Shown here: one piece after another, positions 14,970-32,822 of the stretch
How positions within the stretch are numbered: position 1 is the first letter of the stretch
How the letters are laid out: each line of letters starts with the position of its first letter
Assembly (NCBI GenBank): GCA_038734275.1
Contig: JAVYOO010000001.1
Span: forward strand, 310,001-374,000
Length of the DNA: 64,000 nucleotides
From: Archaeoglobaceae archaeon
GTDB taxonomy: Archaea; Halobacteriota; Archaeoglobi; Archaeoglobales; Archaeoglobaceae
Direction: 5' to 3'
Notes under the pieces: generated by a model
The model's database searches: none
Seen by the model: only the letters and a program-made list of their open reading frames with translations
Told to the model about the DNA's origin: nothing
Translations under genes and position numbers: made by a program

Positions 14970-15494
14970 TTAGTAATAATTATTTGGCGGTCCCCAGTCT
15001 CCATTGACTTCGAGCTTCACGGGTTTGCAGGGCTCAACAACTGTTATTTCTTTGAAGACAACCGCTCCATCGAATCTCGGAAGCTTTACAATGTGGAACG
15101 GAGAAGTTATAACTGGCATCGGAATACAATTGTTGCCTGGCTTCTTCTTGACGACAGTGACAACCATCACGTCTTTGTTGTGGGGTTCTGTAGCCTTTGG
15201 AATTATCTTGATACTCCTTATAGTTATATCATAGCCAGAAGTTGATTTCCAGCCGTAGAAGGTTGCTATTACCATTTCTCGATCAAAGTTCACGCTATCA
15301 TTGACAACTAATCCTGCTTTCGCCATGAGCTCCTTGAAACTCGCTTCATCCCTTATAACGTAGTTATCTTCGCCGAGGTAATCGCAGAACTGCCCCTTCG
15401 CAATCGTTTTGAACGGCACTTCGATCGCTCCAGCAATTATTCCAGCGGTTGCAAACACCAAAGTGCAGATTGCGATTCCGAGCAACAACTTCAT
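14970..15494 (-). CDS. Secreted PrcB-like domain protein
   Basis: About 174 residues with a hydrophobic N-terminal signal (MKLLLGIAICTLVFATAGII). The mature part carries the features of the PrcB_C domain: FKTIAKGQF, VIRDEASFKELMAKAG, DREMVIATFYGWKSTSGYDI and SPFHIVKLPRFDGAVVF. The function in archaea is unknown; in treponemes PrcB is part of a protease complex. Start chosen at the ATG at 15494 because GGTGATGGAG lies just upstream; ATG 15500 and GTG 15503 are alternatives. Confidence 0.6.
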   Translation of the reverse strand: MKLLLGIAICTLVFATAGIIAGAIEVPFKTIAKGQFCDYLGEDNYVIRDEASFKELMAKAGLVVNDSVNFDREMVIATFYGWKSTSGYDITIRSIKIIPKATEPHNKDVMVVTVVKKKPGNNCIPMPVITSPFHIVKLPRFDGAVVFKEITVVEPCKPVKLEVNGDWGPPNNYY

Positions 15495-15612
15495 CTCCAT
15501 CACCGATAATGCTATGGCATTGCATGTATATTACTGATTTGTTTTTGTAATAAAAAATATTATCAAATCAAGTTTACATTTTTAATCGGTCCAATGAAAA
15601 GAGTTGGGACAA

Positions 15613-15870
15613 ATGCTTGCAATTGGTGAAATCCTCAAAGCTTTGAAAGATCTCATCGAACGTAATTTTTCGAAGAATGTCAAAATCGTGGAAATGACGT
15701 CGGAAAAGATCGTTTTTCAAGTTTTAAGCCAAGATGAGAAAGATAGAGGAAAAAAGTTACTCAAAATGATAAGAACTCTTGTTGATCGCTACTTTGCTGA
15801 GGTTGAGGTTTCTGAGCATTCACGTGAAAAGTTTGTTTTAAGTCTGAAGAAAAACATAGAGAAAGCTTAA
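15613..15870 (+). CDS. Hypothetical protein (85 aa)
   Basis: An alpha/beta protein with no cysteine: MLAIGEILKALKDLIERNF, a strand (KNVKIVEMTSEKIVFQVL), a long helix and a strand-helix end. I do not recognise it. It sits directly upstream of the RelBE-like remnant and may belong to the same mobile region. A TTG nine bases upstream is an alternative start. Confidence 0.4.
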   Translation: MLAIGEILKALKDLIERNFSKNVKIVEMTSEKIVFQVLSQDEKDRGKKLLKMIRTLVDRYFAEVEVSEHSREKFVLSLKKNIEKA

Positions 15871-15894
15871 AAATAATGCGAGAGTGTTTTAATC

Positions 15895-16050
15895 ATGCAA
15901 AGAGTTTCAATCATAAAAGAGCTTGAGGAGATTAAAGCCCGAATAGAGTCAATCATCGAGACTCTTGAAGTTATGAATGATGAGGAGCTCGCTCAATCTA
16001 TAAAGAAGGGTTTAGAAGAAGCGGATAGGGGAGAACTTAAAGATTTTTGA
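15895..16050 (+). CDS. RelB-like antitoxin (51 aa)
   Basis: ATG at 15895 to TGA at 16050. The peptide (MQRVSIIKELEEIKARIE, then LEVMNDEELAQSIKKGLEEA, ending RGELKDF) is the short helical form of archaeal RelB antitoxins that wrap the RelE toxin. The next ORF is a damaged RelE, which supports the call. It is too short for most gene callers. Confidence 0.65.
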   Translation: MQRVSIIKELEEIKARIESIIETLEVMNDEELAQSIKKGLEEADRGELKDF

Positions 16051-16079
16051 TGAATTCTCGAAGATCTGGGGATCTCAGA

Positions 16080-16338
16080 ATGAGTTATAAAATTAAAGCT
16101 ACTCCAGAATTCGAAAAAGCTTTCAAAGACTTAACGAAAAAGAACTCAGAACTTGCATTGAGGATAGCTAAAGCGATTAAGAAGCTCTCTAAGGATCCAA
16201 ACGCTGGGAACCGCTATCTTAGACTATTCTGGCTTAAGGTCTTTGAGGATAGAAAAATACCGAGTTATTTATCGAATTGTGGAAGAGAAGAAGGAGATTC
16301 ATCTGATCGTTTTGGGGCATAGAAAGAAAGTTTACTGA
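16080..16338 (+). pseudogene. RelE-type toxin broken by frameshifts
   Basis: The N-terminal part (MSYKIKATPEFEKAFKDLTK through LSKDPNAG) is a good RelE start. Around 16205-16225 the frame is lost. In another frame it resumes as DYSGLRSLRIEKYRVIYRIV, then EEKKEIHLIVLGHRKKVY, ending at the TGA at 16336-16338. That is the RelE C-terminus with its basic catalytic residues and aromatic end. Two one-base changes are enough to explain the damage. The toxin is probably inactive. Confidence 0.65.
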
Positions 16339-16341
16339 GAA

Positions 16342-16985
16342 TTAGGATAAAATTCTAAAATCCTTCCAATAACGATCATAGATCTTCCTCAGCTCTTCCT
16401 CATCCTGGAAGTCGTAATGATTCAAATCCACATCTCCTCGAAGAGAATGTCCCATTAAAAGTTTTTTAATCGTTGTTGGCATCCCCAAGCGATCGCTTTG
16501 CTGAGAGAAGAACTTTCGCATGTGCCTAAGCCCAAGGAAAGAATCCAGTTTTCTGAAACATCTTCTTATGCTTGTCTCTGGAAATAGCGTTTTACCACCT
16601 ATGGACAAAATAGCTTTCAAGCCATTCCTTCGCCTCCTCAGAGAAGAAAGTAAAGCGCTCTTCATAGTCTTTGGCGATTCTGAAGTCTATTCTTATCATT
16701 CGCTCTTCCAAATCAATGTTATCTCTTTGCAACTTGTATAGCTCTTCAGCCCTAATTCCTGAGGTTGCAGAGATTAGAATGGCTGTGGTTAACCTTAGCT
16801 TCTGCAACTCGCTAAAATTCTGAAGCTGGTTAAGTGGCTTAAATTAATATGCCGTTAAGATTTGCAGAGTATGAACGAAACTCAGAAAATCGCTTCAATC
16901 TCAGCTTTAAAGCCTTGACGTAGCGTTTATCCCTTGTCCTTAACTCAACTTACGAAACAAGATTGTTGATGATCTCCTCATTCCA
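16342..16985 (-). pseudogene. Decayed tyrosine recombinase (integrase)
   Basis: Pieces of a phage-type integrase are readable in different frames. SATSGIRAEELYKLQ (box I Arg) runs to about 16610. GLRHMRKFFSQQSDRLGMP and KKLLMGHSLRGDVDLNHYDF (HxxR, GH and a tyrosine region) run to 16342. Upstream, about 16800-16985, a degraded piece reads RTRDKRYVKALKLRLKRF. At least one frameshift (about 16600-16660) and stops break it. It lies next to the 3' end of tRNA-Thr, the classical integration target. Confidence 0.7.
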
Positions 16986-17006
16986 AGAAACGGAATTTAA
17001 AAGAAA

Positions 17007-17079
17007 AGCCGCCGGCGGGGTTTGAACCCGCGACCTGGTGATTACAAGTCACCCGCTCTTCCAGCTGAGCCACGGCGGC
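17007..17079 (-). tRNA. tRNA-Thr (anticodon TGT)
   Basis: The minus strand folds as a 73-nt cloverleaf: acceptor GCCGCCG/CGGCGGC, D-arm GCTC...GAGC, anticodon stem GGTGA/TCACC with loop CTTGTAA, T-arm GCGGG TTCAAAC CCCGC and discriminator T. The anticodon TGT reads ACA and related Thr codons. CCA is not encoded. An integrase remnant begins just beyond its 3' end. Confidence 0.95.
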
Positions 17080-17127
17080 TTATCATTTTCACGTTTTCTC
17101 AGATTTTAAGCGTGTCGATAAAAACTT

Positions 17128-19710: not shown

Positions 19711-19826
19711 GAAGGGCGTAAGAGAATGGTGGTTAAAATTTTTGCTATGTGAGTTGAGCAAAAACCATAAATGAGGGAGAACACAAATCATTGTCAATTT
19801 AAGGCGAAAAGTTGCCAACTCCACAC

Positions 19827-20231
19827 ATGGGAAGAAAGCCAAGCGGTAGAGTTAACTTCTTGCTCCGTGTGGATAAAGATCTTCTCTCAGAGTTGCAAGA
19901 GATTACTAAAGTTCAAAGCGTTTCCATTTCAGATTTAATCGAGCGGAAAATACTCGAATTGATAAAAGAGTTTGATTCTAAGAAAGGCGAATCTCATATG
20001 CGAAAAAATTTCTCATATGAGATATCCAGCAAAAATAAAGCTCCAAAGCCCTCAAACCGAAAATCGAACAATCCAGAAAAGCAGGAATTTAACAGTGGCC
20101 TTTTAGGCGTCTCCAATCCTGGAAAAACATGGGCTCGCCCGGATTCGAACCGGGGAACTTCGCCGTGTCAAGGCGACGTCATAACCGCTAGACCACGAGC
20201 CCTAAAAAAAGGGGGGTATTCTGACTTATGA
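19827..20231 (+). CDS. RHH-domain ORF running antisense through tRNA-Val (integrase-N-like remnant?)
   Basis: 134 residues from the ATG at 19827 (a TTG 15 bp earlier is possible). Residues 1-45 (MGRKPSGRVNFLLRVDKDL, then SVSISDLIERKILELIKE) look like a ribbon-helix-helix DNA-binding domain. The tail (WARPDSNRGTSPCQGDV and on) is simply the antisense of the tRNA-Val gene at 20130-20202. SSV-type archaeal integrase genes have this layout, because attP lies inside the gene and matches the tRNA 3' half. No catalytic part is present, so this may be the stranded N-terminal fragment. Confidence 0.45.
   Translation: MGRKPSGRVNFLLRVDKDLLSELQEITKVQSVSISDLIERKILELIKEFDSKKGESHMRKNFSYEISSKNKAPKPSNRKSNNPEKQEFNSGLLGVSNPGKTWARPDSNRGTSPCQGDVITARPRALKKGGYSDL
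20130..20202 (-). tRNA. tRNA-Val (anticodon GAC)
   Basis: 73-nt cloverleaf on the minus strand: acceptor GGGCTCG/CGAGCCC, D-arm GTCT...GGTTATGAC region, anticodon stem TCGCC/GGCGA with loop TTGACAC, T-arm CCCGG TTCGAAT CCGGG and discriminator A. Anticodon GAC reads GUC/GUU valine codons. The ORF 19827-20231 overlaps it on the other strand. Confidence 0.94.
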
Positions 20232-29347: not shown

Positions 29348-30256
29348 TTAGCTTCCGCAGATTTTTCGTAGTTCAGCTGGGGGCTTGTAAGCTTCAGGCT
29401 TCATCATGCTGACTACTTCTTCTGAGTAACCGGCTTGTTTTATTCTCTCTGGAGAACTTATGAACACTGCCTGGCCGTTGCACTGAATTTGAGCAGGGAA
29501 TGGCATTGGAAGGCCCGTATATGAATGTAACCTCGGATCCTTGTATCCGAAATAGACTGCAGAAGGTGGATATAATGTGTGATTCTTGAATTCGATATCC
29601 TCCATTGCTTTTATTACTGAATCTATATTCTTTGGATCTCCAACTTTTTCCATTGCCTCTTTTATGCGATACATCTCTGAGTAGAAGACGTGAGAGGAAA
29701 TGTCAACAGATAAACCTAATGATCTGGCTTTTTCGATGAAAGGTCGCGTTAGTGGGCTAACTGGCGGGATATTGGGAGCATCGTATGCTCCACTAGTTAT
29801 CACACCCAATGCTGCTCCACCGGTTAGATTCCAGAAGACGCTCCAGTGATTCGGACCTCCCCATAGAACGATTGGAATGTCCCTTGCACTGGATGTCGCC
29901 CACTGCTTAACGAGTGTTACTGTGTCAGTATACCAGCTTGAACGCACGAAAATATATTGAGCACCTTTCGATTTGGCCATTTCAAGCATTGGTAGGAAGT
30001 TCTTCTCACCGACAGCTATGTTAACAATGTATACAACTTCCAGTTCGAGTTCATCCCTTATCCAGTCTTTCATAGCTTTTGTTTCAGTAGATCCGAAGGG
30101 TGTTACATATTTGCACCCCTCCCTACTGCAAAGGGTCCAGGCAGCATCTTCAAGGAATAAGGCCACCTTCTTGACACCCATATACAGCTTTGCATCTTCG
30201 AAGAACGGCTTTGTCCAACCGTAGTGATGTTCTGGACTGAAGCGATAAAGAAGCAC
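29348..30256 (-). pseudogene. 5'-truncated ABC substrate-binding protein (branched-chain amino acid type)
   Basis: 302 codons matching the later two thirds of a Peripla_BP_6/LivJ-like binding protein: VKKVALFLEDAAW, KSKGAQYIFVRSSW, IVLWGGPNHWS and a C-terminal DSVIKAMEDIEFKN region. The signal peptide and roughly the first 100-130 residues are missing, and no membrane or ATPase subunit is adjacent. Beyond 30256 the sequence switches to unrelated small genes, so the 5' part was probably deleted or replaced. Confidence 0.65.
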
Positions 30257-30282
30257 ATAGATTGGCTCAGAGGTGAGGATAG

Positions 30283-30453
30283 ATGAACATCAATGACATA
30301 ATAGCAGAGAAAAGAAAGAACGTTGAAGACATCGAAACAAAAATTGCTCAACTCAATAGAAAATTAAGCTTCTCCACCTTGAGCGAAGAAAAGAAGAAAA
30401 TCATGGAAGAGATAACAAAGCTGGAAAAGCAGAAGAGAGAAAGTGAATATTAG
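30283..30453 (+). CDS. Coiled-coil peptide (56 aa) ended by an in-frame amber codon
   Basis: ATG at 30283 preceded by GAGGTGAGG, a good ribosome-binding site. The peptide (MNINDIIAEKRKNVEDIETK, LNRKLSFSTLSEEKKKI, MEEITKLEKQKRESEY) is a strongly charged coiled coil. After TAG at 30451-30453 the same frame stays open with more coiled coil, so this may be the first half of a longer gene. Confidence 0.5.
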   Translation: MNINDIIAEKRKNVEDIETKIAQLNRKLSFSTLSEEKKKIMEEITKLEKQKRESEY

Positions 30454-30771
30454 CTTCAGAAATTACAAGACGAACGTTTAAATGAGCTTGCTGAGCAATT
30501 GAGGAAGAGAAGAGAACAAGAAAAACAAGAAGAACGCTTAAGCACTATATTGCCTCTAGTTGAGGAATTTACACTCAAAGTTTGCTTCAAATGCACTAAA
30601 AAACAAATTGTGAGGCCTTTCTCACGAAAAACAGATAGAAGATGCTTCCATGCATACTTTCAGAGCTACTTAATCACTAATTTTTTAAGAGAGAGTTATG
30701 CAGATCGAGAAAAGAGCAGTAGGATTGAACACCTTCTTTTCGGTTTGCGAGAGATGCAAATTCAAGACTGA
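30454..30771 (+). pseudogene. Continuation of the coiled-coil gene after the amber codon
   Basis: The same frame continues as LQKLQDERLNELAEQLRKR, REQEKQEERLSTILPLVEEF, then CFKCTKKQIVRPFSRKTDRR and ends at 30771. The heptad-like charge pattern runs unbroken across the stop. An independent start could be the TTG at 30499, but it has no Shine-Dalgarno match. The last 74 bp overlap the next gene in another frame. Confidence 0.35.
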
Positions 30772-30883
30772 TAACTGCACAAAAAACATCGATCTATGCA
30801 TACTCTCAGAGACCTGCTTCTATCTCAGAAAAATTGCCATTCTGTTAGAGCACATTCAAAAAAAGCTTGATGACTCGCTGTAA
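30698..30883 (+). CDS. Cysteine-rich small protein (61 aa)
   Basis: ATG at 30698. Five cysteines lie in one stretch (VCERCKFKTDNC, IDLCILSETCFYL), consistent with a small metal-binding domain. A helix LRKIAILLEHIQKKLDD follows. Its 3' end overlaps the next gene by 14 bp, so it is probably part of a small-gene operon. Family not recognised. Confidence 0.45.
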   Translation: MQIEKRAVGLNTFFSVCERCKFKTDNCTKNIDLCILSETCFYLRKIAILLEHIQKKLDDSL

Positions 30884-31313
30884 GATTTGCAGAAGCCCTT
30901 ACAGGGAGCAAATTGATCAAATGCTTGTGGATAATCGAGCATACAACGAGATAATCGCTTCCTTCCCAGAACTTTGCCTAAACAAAGTCAATCTTTCAAA
31001 TCACAAGAGGCACATTTATCCGAGCATGATTGAAGAGGCTCGAAGGAAATACGATTCGCATGTTAATGAACTTGCATCTAAAGTCTTAGATGAGATCACC
31101 GCTCTGGATAGCGTTATAGCCAAGGCTTATTCGATTTTTTCAACTTTCGACTTTGAAACAAAGCCAAGAGTTGTGGAGGTATGGACAAACGCTCTCCTGC
31201 GTGCTATAAAGCTTAAAAACGAGATTTTAGCGCTGAAAAGTCCACAGAATGAATTTGAAAAAATTCTTGAAAATCTGTGGAAGGAGGATGGAAATGAAGA
31301 GGGAAGAATTTAG
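30870..31313 (+). CDS. Zinc-finger protein (147 aa), possibly viral or plasmid
   Basis: MTRCKICRSPYREQIDQML begins with CxxC, and NLSNHKRHIYP supplies two histidines about 40 residues later, giving a CCHH-like finger. A long helical region follows to the C-terminus. Small proteins with this finger plus a helix-turn-helix-like spacing occur in archaeal viruses and plasmids, sometimes as small-terminase-like proteins; that parallel is my inference. It overlaps genes on both sides. Confidence 0.5.
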   Translation: MTRCKICRSPYREQIDQMLVDNRAYNEIIASFPELCLNKVNLSNHKRHIYPSMIEEARRKYDSHVNELASKVLDEITALDSVIAKAYSIFSTFDFETKPRVVEVWTNALLRAIKLKNEILALKSPQNEFEKILENLWKEDGNEEGRI

Positions 31314-31530
31314 AAAATTGAAGAGAGTTTTAAAAGTTGAGAACGCTAAAGACGTTCAAAGAATTTTGAACACGCTTTCAGCTCTCGTGATTACTGAAGC
31401 AATAGATCGAGAAATTGCAGAGACTTTGTTGAAAATTCTCGAGTTACAGGTCAGAATTCTTGAAATTATAGAACTCGAAGATGTTGAGAAGCTCGAAGAT
31501 GCAAAGAAGGATTTCAACCCTCATACTTAG
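31294..31530 (+). CDS. Helical small protein (78 aa)
   Basis: ATG at 31294 follows AAGGAGG by seven bases, a good ribosome-binding site inside the preceding gene. The product (MKREEFRKLKRVLKVENAK, then LSALVITEAIDREIAETLLK, LEIIELEDVEKLEDAKKD) is all helix with no cysteine. Family not recognised. It overlaps the zinc-finger gene by 20 bp. Confidence 0.5.
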   Translation: MKREEFRKLKRVLKVENAKDVQRILNTLSALVITEAIDREIAETLLKILELQVRILEIIELEDVEKLEDAKKDFNPHT

Positions 31531-31571
31531 ATACCAGAAAAAATCTTATTTTTGAAGGTGAACTTTCTCAC

Positions 31572-31826
31572 ATGTCATTACCAGTAAGGGTGAAGATAAA
31601 GTGTCCAGGATGTGGAGAGTGGTTTGAAACTGGCTACTGGGCTTCTATAAACCTAATGGTTGAACCTCTAAGCGAAGAAGACGTTGAAGAGAGAGTAACA
31701 CATCAATGCCCTCACTGTGGAAAAAAGATCTTTCTACCACCCGATCTCTTGGTGACATCCGAGAAGTGGTTGATTTTTGAAGCGGATCGGGAGCAGGAAA
31801 AGATCGAGATCGAATTTCTCGATTGA
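31572..31826 (+). CDS. Zinc-ribbon small protein (84 aa)
   Basis: Two CxxC pairs (IKCPGCGEWFETGYW and HQCPHCGKKIFLPPD) about 35 residues apart form a probable zinc ribbon. An acidic C-terminus follows. It is the last gene of the small-gene run from 30283 to 31826. Possible roles are nucleic-acid binding or transcriptional regulation of an integrated element. Confidence 0.5.
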   Translation: MSLPVRVKIKCPGCGEWFETGYWASINLMVEPLSEEDVEERVTHQCPHCGKKIFLPPDLLVTSEKWLIFEADREQEKIEIEFLD

Positions 31827-31941
31827 TTTCTTTTTTAGTTTACTCTAATCAAATCTTTTTTGGTTTATTTCCACAGTATTTTTCGATTTTTGTAATAAAA
31901 GCATAAATAATGTTGTGCGGTAGTTTGCTATAGATAGTATT

Positions 31942-31955
31942 AGTTTATATAAATA
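31942..31955 (+). promoter_or_regulatory. TATA box for the RHH gene at 31972
   Basis: AGTTTATATAAATA is a near-ideal archaeal TATA element about 25 nt upstream of GGTGATAAA, the likely ribosome-binding site of the next gene. Confidence 0.5.
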
Positions 31956-31971
31956 CAAGAATGGTGATAAA

Positions 31972-32262
31972 ATGAAGAAGAGAACTTCAGTCTATATCGA
32001 TGAGGCTTTGCTGGATTTTGCAAAGAAAGAAGGTATTAACTTGCCAAACTTACTCGAAGAAGCGATTAAATCTTGTAGAAACGGTAAAAAACTGGCAGAG
32101 CGGGTGACTCGTAATCATCAGGTTGCAGGTTCAAACCCTGCCCATGGCTTGTCTATTTTTGAAATTAGGATAAAAGCTGGCTGTATTTGGTCTTTTATGG
32201 CTTTAATGGACTTTTCTACAAAAGAAGAGATATTTGAGACGTTTTGTTTTAGCCAGTCGTAA
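31972..32262 (+). CDS. RHH-domain protein whose frame runs into a tRNA fragment
   Basis: The first 40 residues (MKKRTSVYIDEALLDFAKKE, NLPNLLEEAIKS) form a good ribbon-helix-helix domain. From residue 41 (RVTRNHQVAGSNPAHG) the frame is merely the sense reading of the tRNA-Thr 3' fragment at 32091-32149. The remaining tail has no protein character. The original gene was probably cut by recombination at this site. Confidence 0.5.
   Translation: MKKRTSVYIDEALLDFAKKEGINLPNLLEEAIKSCRNGKKLAERVTRNHQVAGSNPAHGLSIFEIRIKAGCIWSFMALMDFSTKEEIFETFCFSQS
32091..32149 (+). repeat. 3' fragment of a tRNA-Thr(CGT) gene: probable attachment-site scar
   Basis: The stretch reads as the 3' three quarters of a tRNA: end of the D-arm (ACTGGCAGAGC), anticodon stem GGTGA/TCATC with loop CTCGTAA (anticodon CGT), T-arm GCAGG TTCAAAC CCTGC, acceptor 3' strand CCATGGC and T. 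The 5' acceptor strand and the first half of the D-arm are missing; an RHH gene is there instead. Such fragments are left at the far end of elements integrated into tRNA genes. Confidence 0.75.
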
Positions 32263-32385
32263 AGCTCCTTATCTATGGTCAGATGCAATCGAGGTCGTAA
32301 GCGGTTCGTTTGGCTTTCTGAGCCTTCTGAAGACTTTTTCTTGTGTCCGGATATGGAAAATGTTGCAGAAAAGAGACAATACGGA
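32118..32385 (-). pseudogene. N-terminal fragment of an SSV-type integrase (probable)
   Basis: The minus strand is open from about 32385 to a TGA at 32118-32120 without a clear ATG. It reads ISGHKKKSSEGSESQTNRLR, PRLHLTIDKELYDWLKQN, VSNISSFVEKSIKAIKDQ, then KIDKPWAGFEPAT, where the last part is antisense to the tRNA-Thr fragment. An RHH-like DNA-binding domain followed by a frame through a tRNA 3' end is the arrangement in archaeal SSV-type integrases with internal attP. No catalytic domain is present. Confidence 0.5.
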
Positions 32386-32564: not shown

Positions 32565-32822
32565 TTGGCGGAAATTACAGAAGTTAGAATATACAAGTCG
32601 AAGGGAGACGGAAACGTAAAGGCGTATGCCTCTGTAAGCTTGGACAATGAATTCGTTGTGAAGGGTTTGAAAGTTATAGAGGGTGAAAAGGGGCTTTGGG
32701 TTAGCATGCCCAGCAAAAAAGGAAAAGATGGGAGCTATCAGGATCTGTTCCATCCGGTAAGTAAGGAAGCCAGAGATAAGATTGTTGATGCTGTGCTAAA
32801 AGCCTACCATAATCAGGAGTAA
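32565..32822 (+). CDS. SpoVG family protein
   Basis: 85 residues from a TTG at 32565 placed six bases after AAGGAGGGT. The sequence AEITEVRIYKSKGDGNVKAY, ASVSLDNEFVVKGLKVI, KGLWVSMPSKKGKDG and LFHPVSKEARDKIVDAVL follows bacterial SpoVG end to end. SpoVG proteins bind DNA or RNA and regulate gene expression in bacteria. In this archaeon it has its own strong promoter and sits at the right end of the accessory island, so acquisition by transfer is possible. Confidence 0.8.
   Translation: MAEITEVRIYKSKGDGNVKAYASVSLDNEFVVKGLKVIEGEKGLWVSMPSKKGKDGSYQDLFHPVSKEARDKIVDAVLKAYHNQE

Follow-up and report, generated by a model that had tools for sequence, protein, structure and literature searches.

Suicidal, or SSV-type, integrases (SSV1, pTN3, pT26-2; PMC8371274) carry attP within the integrase gene, so that recombination with a tRNA gene cuts the integrase gene into int(N) and int(C). 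They have been tied to the PF16795 domain (SSV, pTN3, pT26-2) and to a single origin (PMC8371274). A switch in specificity has been proposed to proceed through chimeric genes that arise by recombination between integrated elements, and target switching keeps to tRNAs with, or to tRNAs without, an extra loop (PMC8371274). Inversions between related integrated elements are described for Thermococcus kodakarensis (PMC8371274). XerA is a stand-alone chromosomal enzyme of dimer resolution with an HxxR motif.

The locus described here lies in a 64,000-nucleotide stretch, hereafter the window (G000:C1:310001-374000), of an Archaeoglobaceae genome sampled as 1.73 Mb in 12 contigs. Its central integrase family, which we name Int-I, consists of an RHH domain, an in-frame tRNA fragment and a tyrosine integrase. 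Like the SSV-type integrases, Int-I has attP in the gene, an int(N)/int(C) split, a KxxR motif, many tRNA targets per family and inversions between related elements; it differs from them in its RHH N-terminus, its sense-oriented att and a catalytic domain closest to XerA and classical archaeal integrases. With the pT26-2 family (Thermococcales, Archaeoglobales) it shares several tRNA targets and a proposed switch of specificity via chimeric integrase genes, a likeness drawn by description. The XerA and classical archaeal integrases resemble it in the catalytic and core-binding domains; unlike XerA, Int-I is element-borne and split, with KxxR, the RHH domain and an attP in its coding sequence. 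Judged from its domains, Int-I is a variant suicidal integrase with an RHH N-terminus, a sense att and a XerA-like catalytic domain, the type of scar itself being known. A literature search, thin on subscription sources (e.g. Badel et al. 2020), found no paper describing RHH-headed suicidal integrases.

The tRNA fragment and the Int-I remnant

The scar and its surroundings comprise the following features:

31943–31955, plus strand: TATA-like sequence 5′ of int(N), similar to those before the copies L077, L078, L080 and L092–L096
31972–32091, plus strand: int(N), the N-terminal RHH (CcdA-like) domain of the putative Int-I integrase (Pfam CcdA, 22.9 bits, above cut-off)
32092–32150, plus strand: putative att site, a 59-nt tRNA-Thr 3′ fragment, CGT-like in its 5′ part and GGT-like at its 3′ end
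32157–32294, minus strand: putative int(N) of Int-II, the RHH N-terminus of an SSV-type integrase and probable relic of an older insertion in the same tRNA
32565–32822, plus strand: spoVG (Pfam SpoVG, 1.7e-32), host gene downstream of the proposed original integration site

The fragment at 32092–32150 corresponds to the D-loop-to-3′-end part of a tRNA-Thr with anticodon CGT and matches the tRNA-Thr(CGT) of its own genome at 90% over 51 nt (E 7e-16). As the sequence-only reading had noticed, its 5′ half is absent, and ARAGORN and Rfam both report no tRNA at this position. That reading took the left RHH gene to be cut at the fragment; the frame instead continues through it in sense (MKKRTSVYID...NGKKLAERVTRNHQVAGSNPAHGL), as in the Int-I family. 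Over 40 aa, the left RHH domain shares 62.5% identity with the N-terminal part of an intact integrase (L093, genome G019), whose unbroken 325-aa frame joins a CcdA RHH domain, an in-frame tRNA-Arg(TCG) fragment and a Phage_integrase domain, placing the attP of Int-I inside the integrase reading frame.

The family was searched for in 55 genomes, and the relatives with Int-I are named Archaeoglobales and Archaeoglobaceae. What comes after the Int-I RHH start, which has a similar TATA-like sequence upstream, varies from genome to genome: a fragment of a Thr, Lys, Arg, Gly, Gln or Leu tRNA. At no fewer than 20 loci, an intact tRNA is followed immediately, on its own strand, by the int(C) of Int-I. 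In five proviruses the opposite end of the element bears int(N) and a piece of this tRNA (97–100% identical), so that the two parts of the split gene mark the element ends, one with the intact tRNA and the other with the fragment:

G007: Lys(CTT), about 12 kb
G010: Thr(CGT), about 12 kb
G014: Gly(GCC), about 39 kb
G023: Leu(CAG), about 2.6 kb
G051: Leu(CAG), about 2.6 kb

Related Int-I elements carry tape-measure, primase or virion(-like) genes. Among free-virus records, int(C) occurs in five IMG/VR contigs, in which the RHH half was not found; plasmid and phage collections yielded only distant integrases, the plasmid matches being distant bacterial XerA-like enzymes.

Because relatives show the order RHH, tRNA fragment, integrase and the pairing of int(N), int(C) and tRNA, the left side of the scar reads as an attR made of int(N) and att. 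With high confidence, we thus regard 32092–32150 as the attR left by a provirus with attP inside its integrase gene. The earlier proposal of an attachment-site scar from an integrase gene with internal attP is upheld by the intact L093 gene and the five paired proviruses, and the odd tRNA fragment is accounted for as a provirus end.

Three integrase families in the window

All 12 Int-I members carry PF00589, and the active-site residues R129, K156, K207, R210, H233 and Y243 (R...K...KxxR...H...Y) are invariant in the 12 sequences. Int-I scores 50 bits with PF00589 and 22 bits with PF16795, below the 27-bit cut-off of the latter, which both Int-II and Int-III exceed. Against the SSV1 catalytic domain (PDB 3vcf), Int-I gave no match at E<=0.01 as a single sequence or at E<=1 as a profile; Int-III matched with E 1.3e-4. 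The best PDB matches of Int-I are XerC-like and XerA structures (4a8e, 5hxy), with likeness in the catalytic and core-binding parts. In hhalign comparisons, which rest on small alignments, Int-I matches classical Archaeoglobales integrases at 99.2% (E 2e-19) and SSV-type integrases with E 5e-6. The suggestion of an SSV-type integrase therefore stands for the attP within the gene and the split on integration; by sequence, the main integrase is XerA-like and not SSV1-like. A true descent of Int-I from XerA-like enzymes would call for a revision of the view that suicidal integrases had one origin.

The RHH frame to the right of the fragment (32157–32294) runs on the minus strand, antisense into the fragment, as had been described. 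Its RHH block is present in 36 distinct copies in the loci examined. Most of these (27 of 36) lie antisense within about 50 nt, mostly 3–20 nt, of the 3′ end of intact tRNAs of many kinds, and two further copies adjoin Int-I tRNA fragments (in the window and in G007). At locus L209, an antisense tRNA-Phe att comes next after the block, and then a 333-aa frame with PF16795 (102.7 bits). Since copies sit at tRNA 3′ ends and L209 reads on into a PF16795 domain, the right RHH is best described as int(N) of a separate SSV-type integrase, Int-II. The sequence-only reading had assigned this RHH to the scar as its int(N); that part is played by the left RHH, and the right one would be separate and older. 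Its view that element-derived sequence lies on both sides holds, as successive insertions, Int-I on the left and Int-II on the right.

A third family is represented elsewhere in the window:

19812–20129, plus strand: putative int(N) of Int-III, a further SSV-type integrase; this RHH N-terminus runs antisense into tRNA-Val(GAC) at 20130–20202

This int(N) is 73–77% identical to two intact integrases of the same genome (L160:4066-5238 and L161:3302-4504; 391 and 406 aa; PF16795), which carry tRNA-Val(TAC) and tRNA-Ala(CGC) att sites inside. Candidate explanations for the unsplit state of both genes are an unintegrated, a tandem or a resurrected element. Copies related to the Int-III int(N) also occur at several other tRNAs of the genome.

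Integration site and element halves

The tRNA fragment is composite. Over its first 45 nt it has 3–4 mismatches to CGT-type tRNA-Thr and 14 to tRNA-Thr(GGT), and over its last 14 nt it has 4 to CGT and 2 to GGT. None of the tRNA-Thr(CGT) genes examined ends in these 14 nt, and no intact gene with exactly this 3′ end was found in the genome itself or in 54 family relatives. By these counts the fragment is a hybrid of a CGT-type front and a GGT-type tail. As the assignment of its 3′ end to tRNA-Thr(GGT) is carried by two informative bases and by synteny, we consider it probable, with somewhat less assurance than the attR itself; decay of a released fragment could mimic a GGT-like tail.

The order hef, tRNA-Thr(GGT), spoVG, DUF35, thiolase is unbroken in a relative (G046), which presents the unoccupied site. 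In the genome under study, hef and tRNA-Thr(GGT), 77% identical to the G046 locus, occupy one end of contig C4, an int(C) following some 2.1 kb further downstream, and spoVG sits 3′ of the tRNA fragment in the window. These arrangements agree with the GGT-type tail, and the gene entered was most likely tRNA-Thr(GGT), rather than the tRNA-Thr(CGT) named at first. The search for these in the genome, which the sequence-only reading had suggested, recovered an intact tRNA-Thr(CGT) and int(C), the latter at tRNA-Thr(TGT) and on C4, not at CGT. Pairing of the scar with tRNA-Thr(CGT) at G000:C2:107633 was rejected, as no integrase lies beside it.

Several side observations concern these neighbourhoods. 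A SpoVG homologue is kept in nearly all family genomes searched and adjoins acetyl-CoA/HMG-CoA genes in the genus. The stretch of about 2.1 kb between tRNA-Thr(GGT) and int(C) on C4 (L097:640-2761) resembles, by eye, a second integrase remnant with a zinc-ribbon tail, and closes with 18 nt of tRNA-Thr 3′ end, such as repair of the tRNA by yet another insertion might leave. The tRNA-Thr(TGT) of the window (17006–17080) adjoins a gene for NMN adenylyltransferase, where five relatives have tRNA-Thr(CGT). The dCMP deaminase locus (G000:C2:107633-107705) holds CGT in this genome, G046 and G052, and TGT in G053 and G050; the two isoacceptors appear to have swapped places.

Integrase activity, the order of events and the path of rearrangement are reconstructed from these sequences as follows. 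The Int-I gene would encode the RHH domain, then the in-frame sense tRNA 3′ fragment serving as attP, then the XerA-like catalytic domain. Recombination of attP with a tRNA gene would restore a whole tRNA, with int(C) behind it, at one end of the element; int(N) and the tRNA 3′ fragment would remain at the other. We postulate that a virus with a tRNA-Thr(CGT)-type attP most likely entered tRNA-Thr(GGT) between hef and spoVG, yielding the hybrid fragment, in which attR would have kept the 3′ end of the host. This tRNA-Thr(GGT) would already have borne the SSV-type int(N) of an earlier insertion, the right RHH, and the older Int-II int(N) would thereby have been pushed away from the intact tRNA. 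A later rearrangement, probably between two element copies, would have parted attL and attR, which now lie on different contigs.

The remaining parts of the element are distributed over the window as follows:

15733–16350: left-hand part of the element, with a relBE-like pair and part of ORF 15616–15870
16351–16990, minus strand: decayed int(C) of a putative second Int-I element copy, immediately behind the 3′ end of tRNA-Thr(TGT)
16409–16587, minus strand: 179-nt perfect repeat between int(C) copies, with the other copy at the contig ends C4:1/C1:1
17006–17080, minus strand: intact tRNA-Thr(TGT) (ARAGORN and Rfam), putative attL of the second copy
30206–30240: rearrangement junction, an N-truncated substrate-binding-protein gene joined to the element interior
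30235–31971, plus strand: right-hand part of the provirus, with ORFs 30867–31313 and 31249–31530 and a zinc-finger ORF at 31572–31826

The two halves lie on opposite strands (REARRANGEMENT), int(C) and the left-hand part being on the strand opposite to attR. The right-hand ORFs have homologues in the G007 and G010 proviruses, and 31086–31971 matches the G051 element with 96.9% identity over 878 nt. The left-hand part, 15733–16350, is 96.7% identical to the same element over 610 nt and is contiguous with int(C) there. Its relBE-like toxin-antitoxin pair (15896–16323), named by eye, has broken frames; the corresponding region of G051 is 97% identical. The int(C) at 16351–16990 is recognisable by tblastn in two pieces (71% and 51%), and its frame is broken. 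Joining the 5′ part on C4 to the 3′ part in the window gives an open int(C) frame, whereas the copy as assembled in the window is broken; the assembly may be crossed at the 179-nt repeat, and we claim no single path. At the junction, the binding-protein gene and its neighbour, also a binding-protein gene, are intact and adjacent in G052; here the pair is split, with one gene truncated at 30235 and the other at C1:322-1200 beside an int(C) remnant.

An alternative account of this layout has just one element, integrated at tRNA-Thr(TGT) (17006–17080) with the fragment as its attR; a 14-kb inversion (about 15.7–30.2 kb) would have flipped one half of the element, and the sequence differences of the fragment would be decay. 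The window does contain both halves, oppositely oriented, and in G051 their counterparts form one continuous element; tRNA-Thr(TGT), expected partner if only one element was ever present, adjoins the window int(C) and is one base apart from tRNA-Thr(CGT) in this genome. Against this, spoVG adjoins tRNA-Thr(GGT) in G046, the right RHH directly follows tRNA-Thr(GGT) in two relatives (G051 and G053), the 3′ end of the fragment fits GGT, and tRNA-Thr(GGT) has a second int(C) some 2 kb downstream. A simple inversion would also bring the gene at 14970–15503 beside the truncated binding-protein gene, whose neighbour in G052 is a different gene. The inversion explains orientation and leaves over the hybrid fragment and the spoVG synteny, and we consider a single element unlikely. 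The ancestral neighbour of gene 14970–15503 is at G000:C2:315 kb, where the lost right half of the second copy was sought and no element material was found.

Two further accounts were weighed. That both RHH genes are ordinary antitoxin-like genes abutting tRNA debris by chance might be suggested by the Pfam name CcdA for the left one, yet both RHH families form the N-terminus of complete integrases with att between, and their copies recur at tRNA 3′ ends or tRNA fragments, which makes coincidence very improbable. Still less credible is a functional split or permuted tRNA, which had been named as the finding that would overturn the scar. The missing adjoining 5′ half would suit it, but intact tRNA-Thr(GGT), (TGT) and (CGT) are all present in the genome, and the layout of RHH and fragment recurs with Lys, Leu, Gly, Arg, Gln and Thr at provirus ends.

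Apparent exchange of the targeting cassette

The comparison with G051 sets a Thr att against a Leu att in nearly the same element. The 878-nt match extends up to the int(N) start codon and the 610-nt match follows int(C). Between them, int(N) is 63–72% identical and the att sites derive from different tRNAs. For int(C), taken for the window as the crossed C4/window join, identity is about 60–68% over the first two-thirds, with 76% in one short gapped bin, and 85–88% over the last 180 nt.

The same element body with both kinds of tRNA, Leu and Thr, fits recombinational replacement of the whole specificity unit, and the route proposed through chimeric genes (PMC8371274) can be seen in this pair. 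The targeting unit, comprising the RHH domain, att and the core-binding part of int(C), thus appears to have been exchanged between near-identical viruses. Read as a cassette, the swap would lead from a tRNA with a long variable arm (Leu) to one without it (Thr), and the scar in the window would be a natural test of target change by integrases that destroy their own gene. The combined proposition, that self-splitting integrases have a second origin, in Archaeoglobales viruses and from a XerA-like enzyme, and that their targeting cassette moves between proviruses of ~97% identity, is tentative, and we lean slightly against it as a whole. The cassette would here be bordered on one side by the start codon of int(N) and on the other by a point some two-thirds of the way into int(C).
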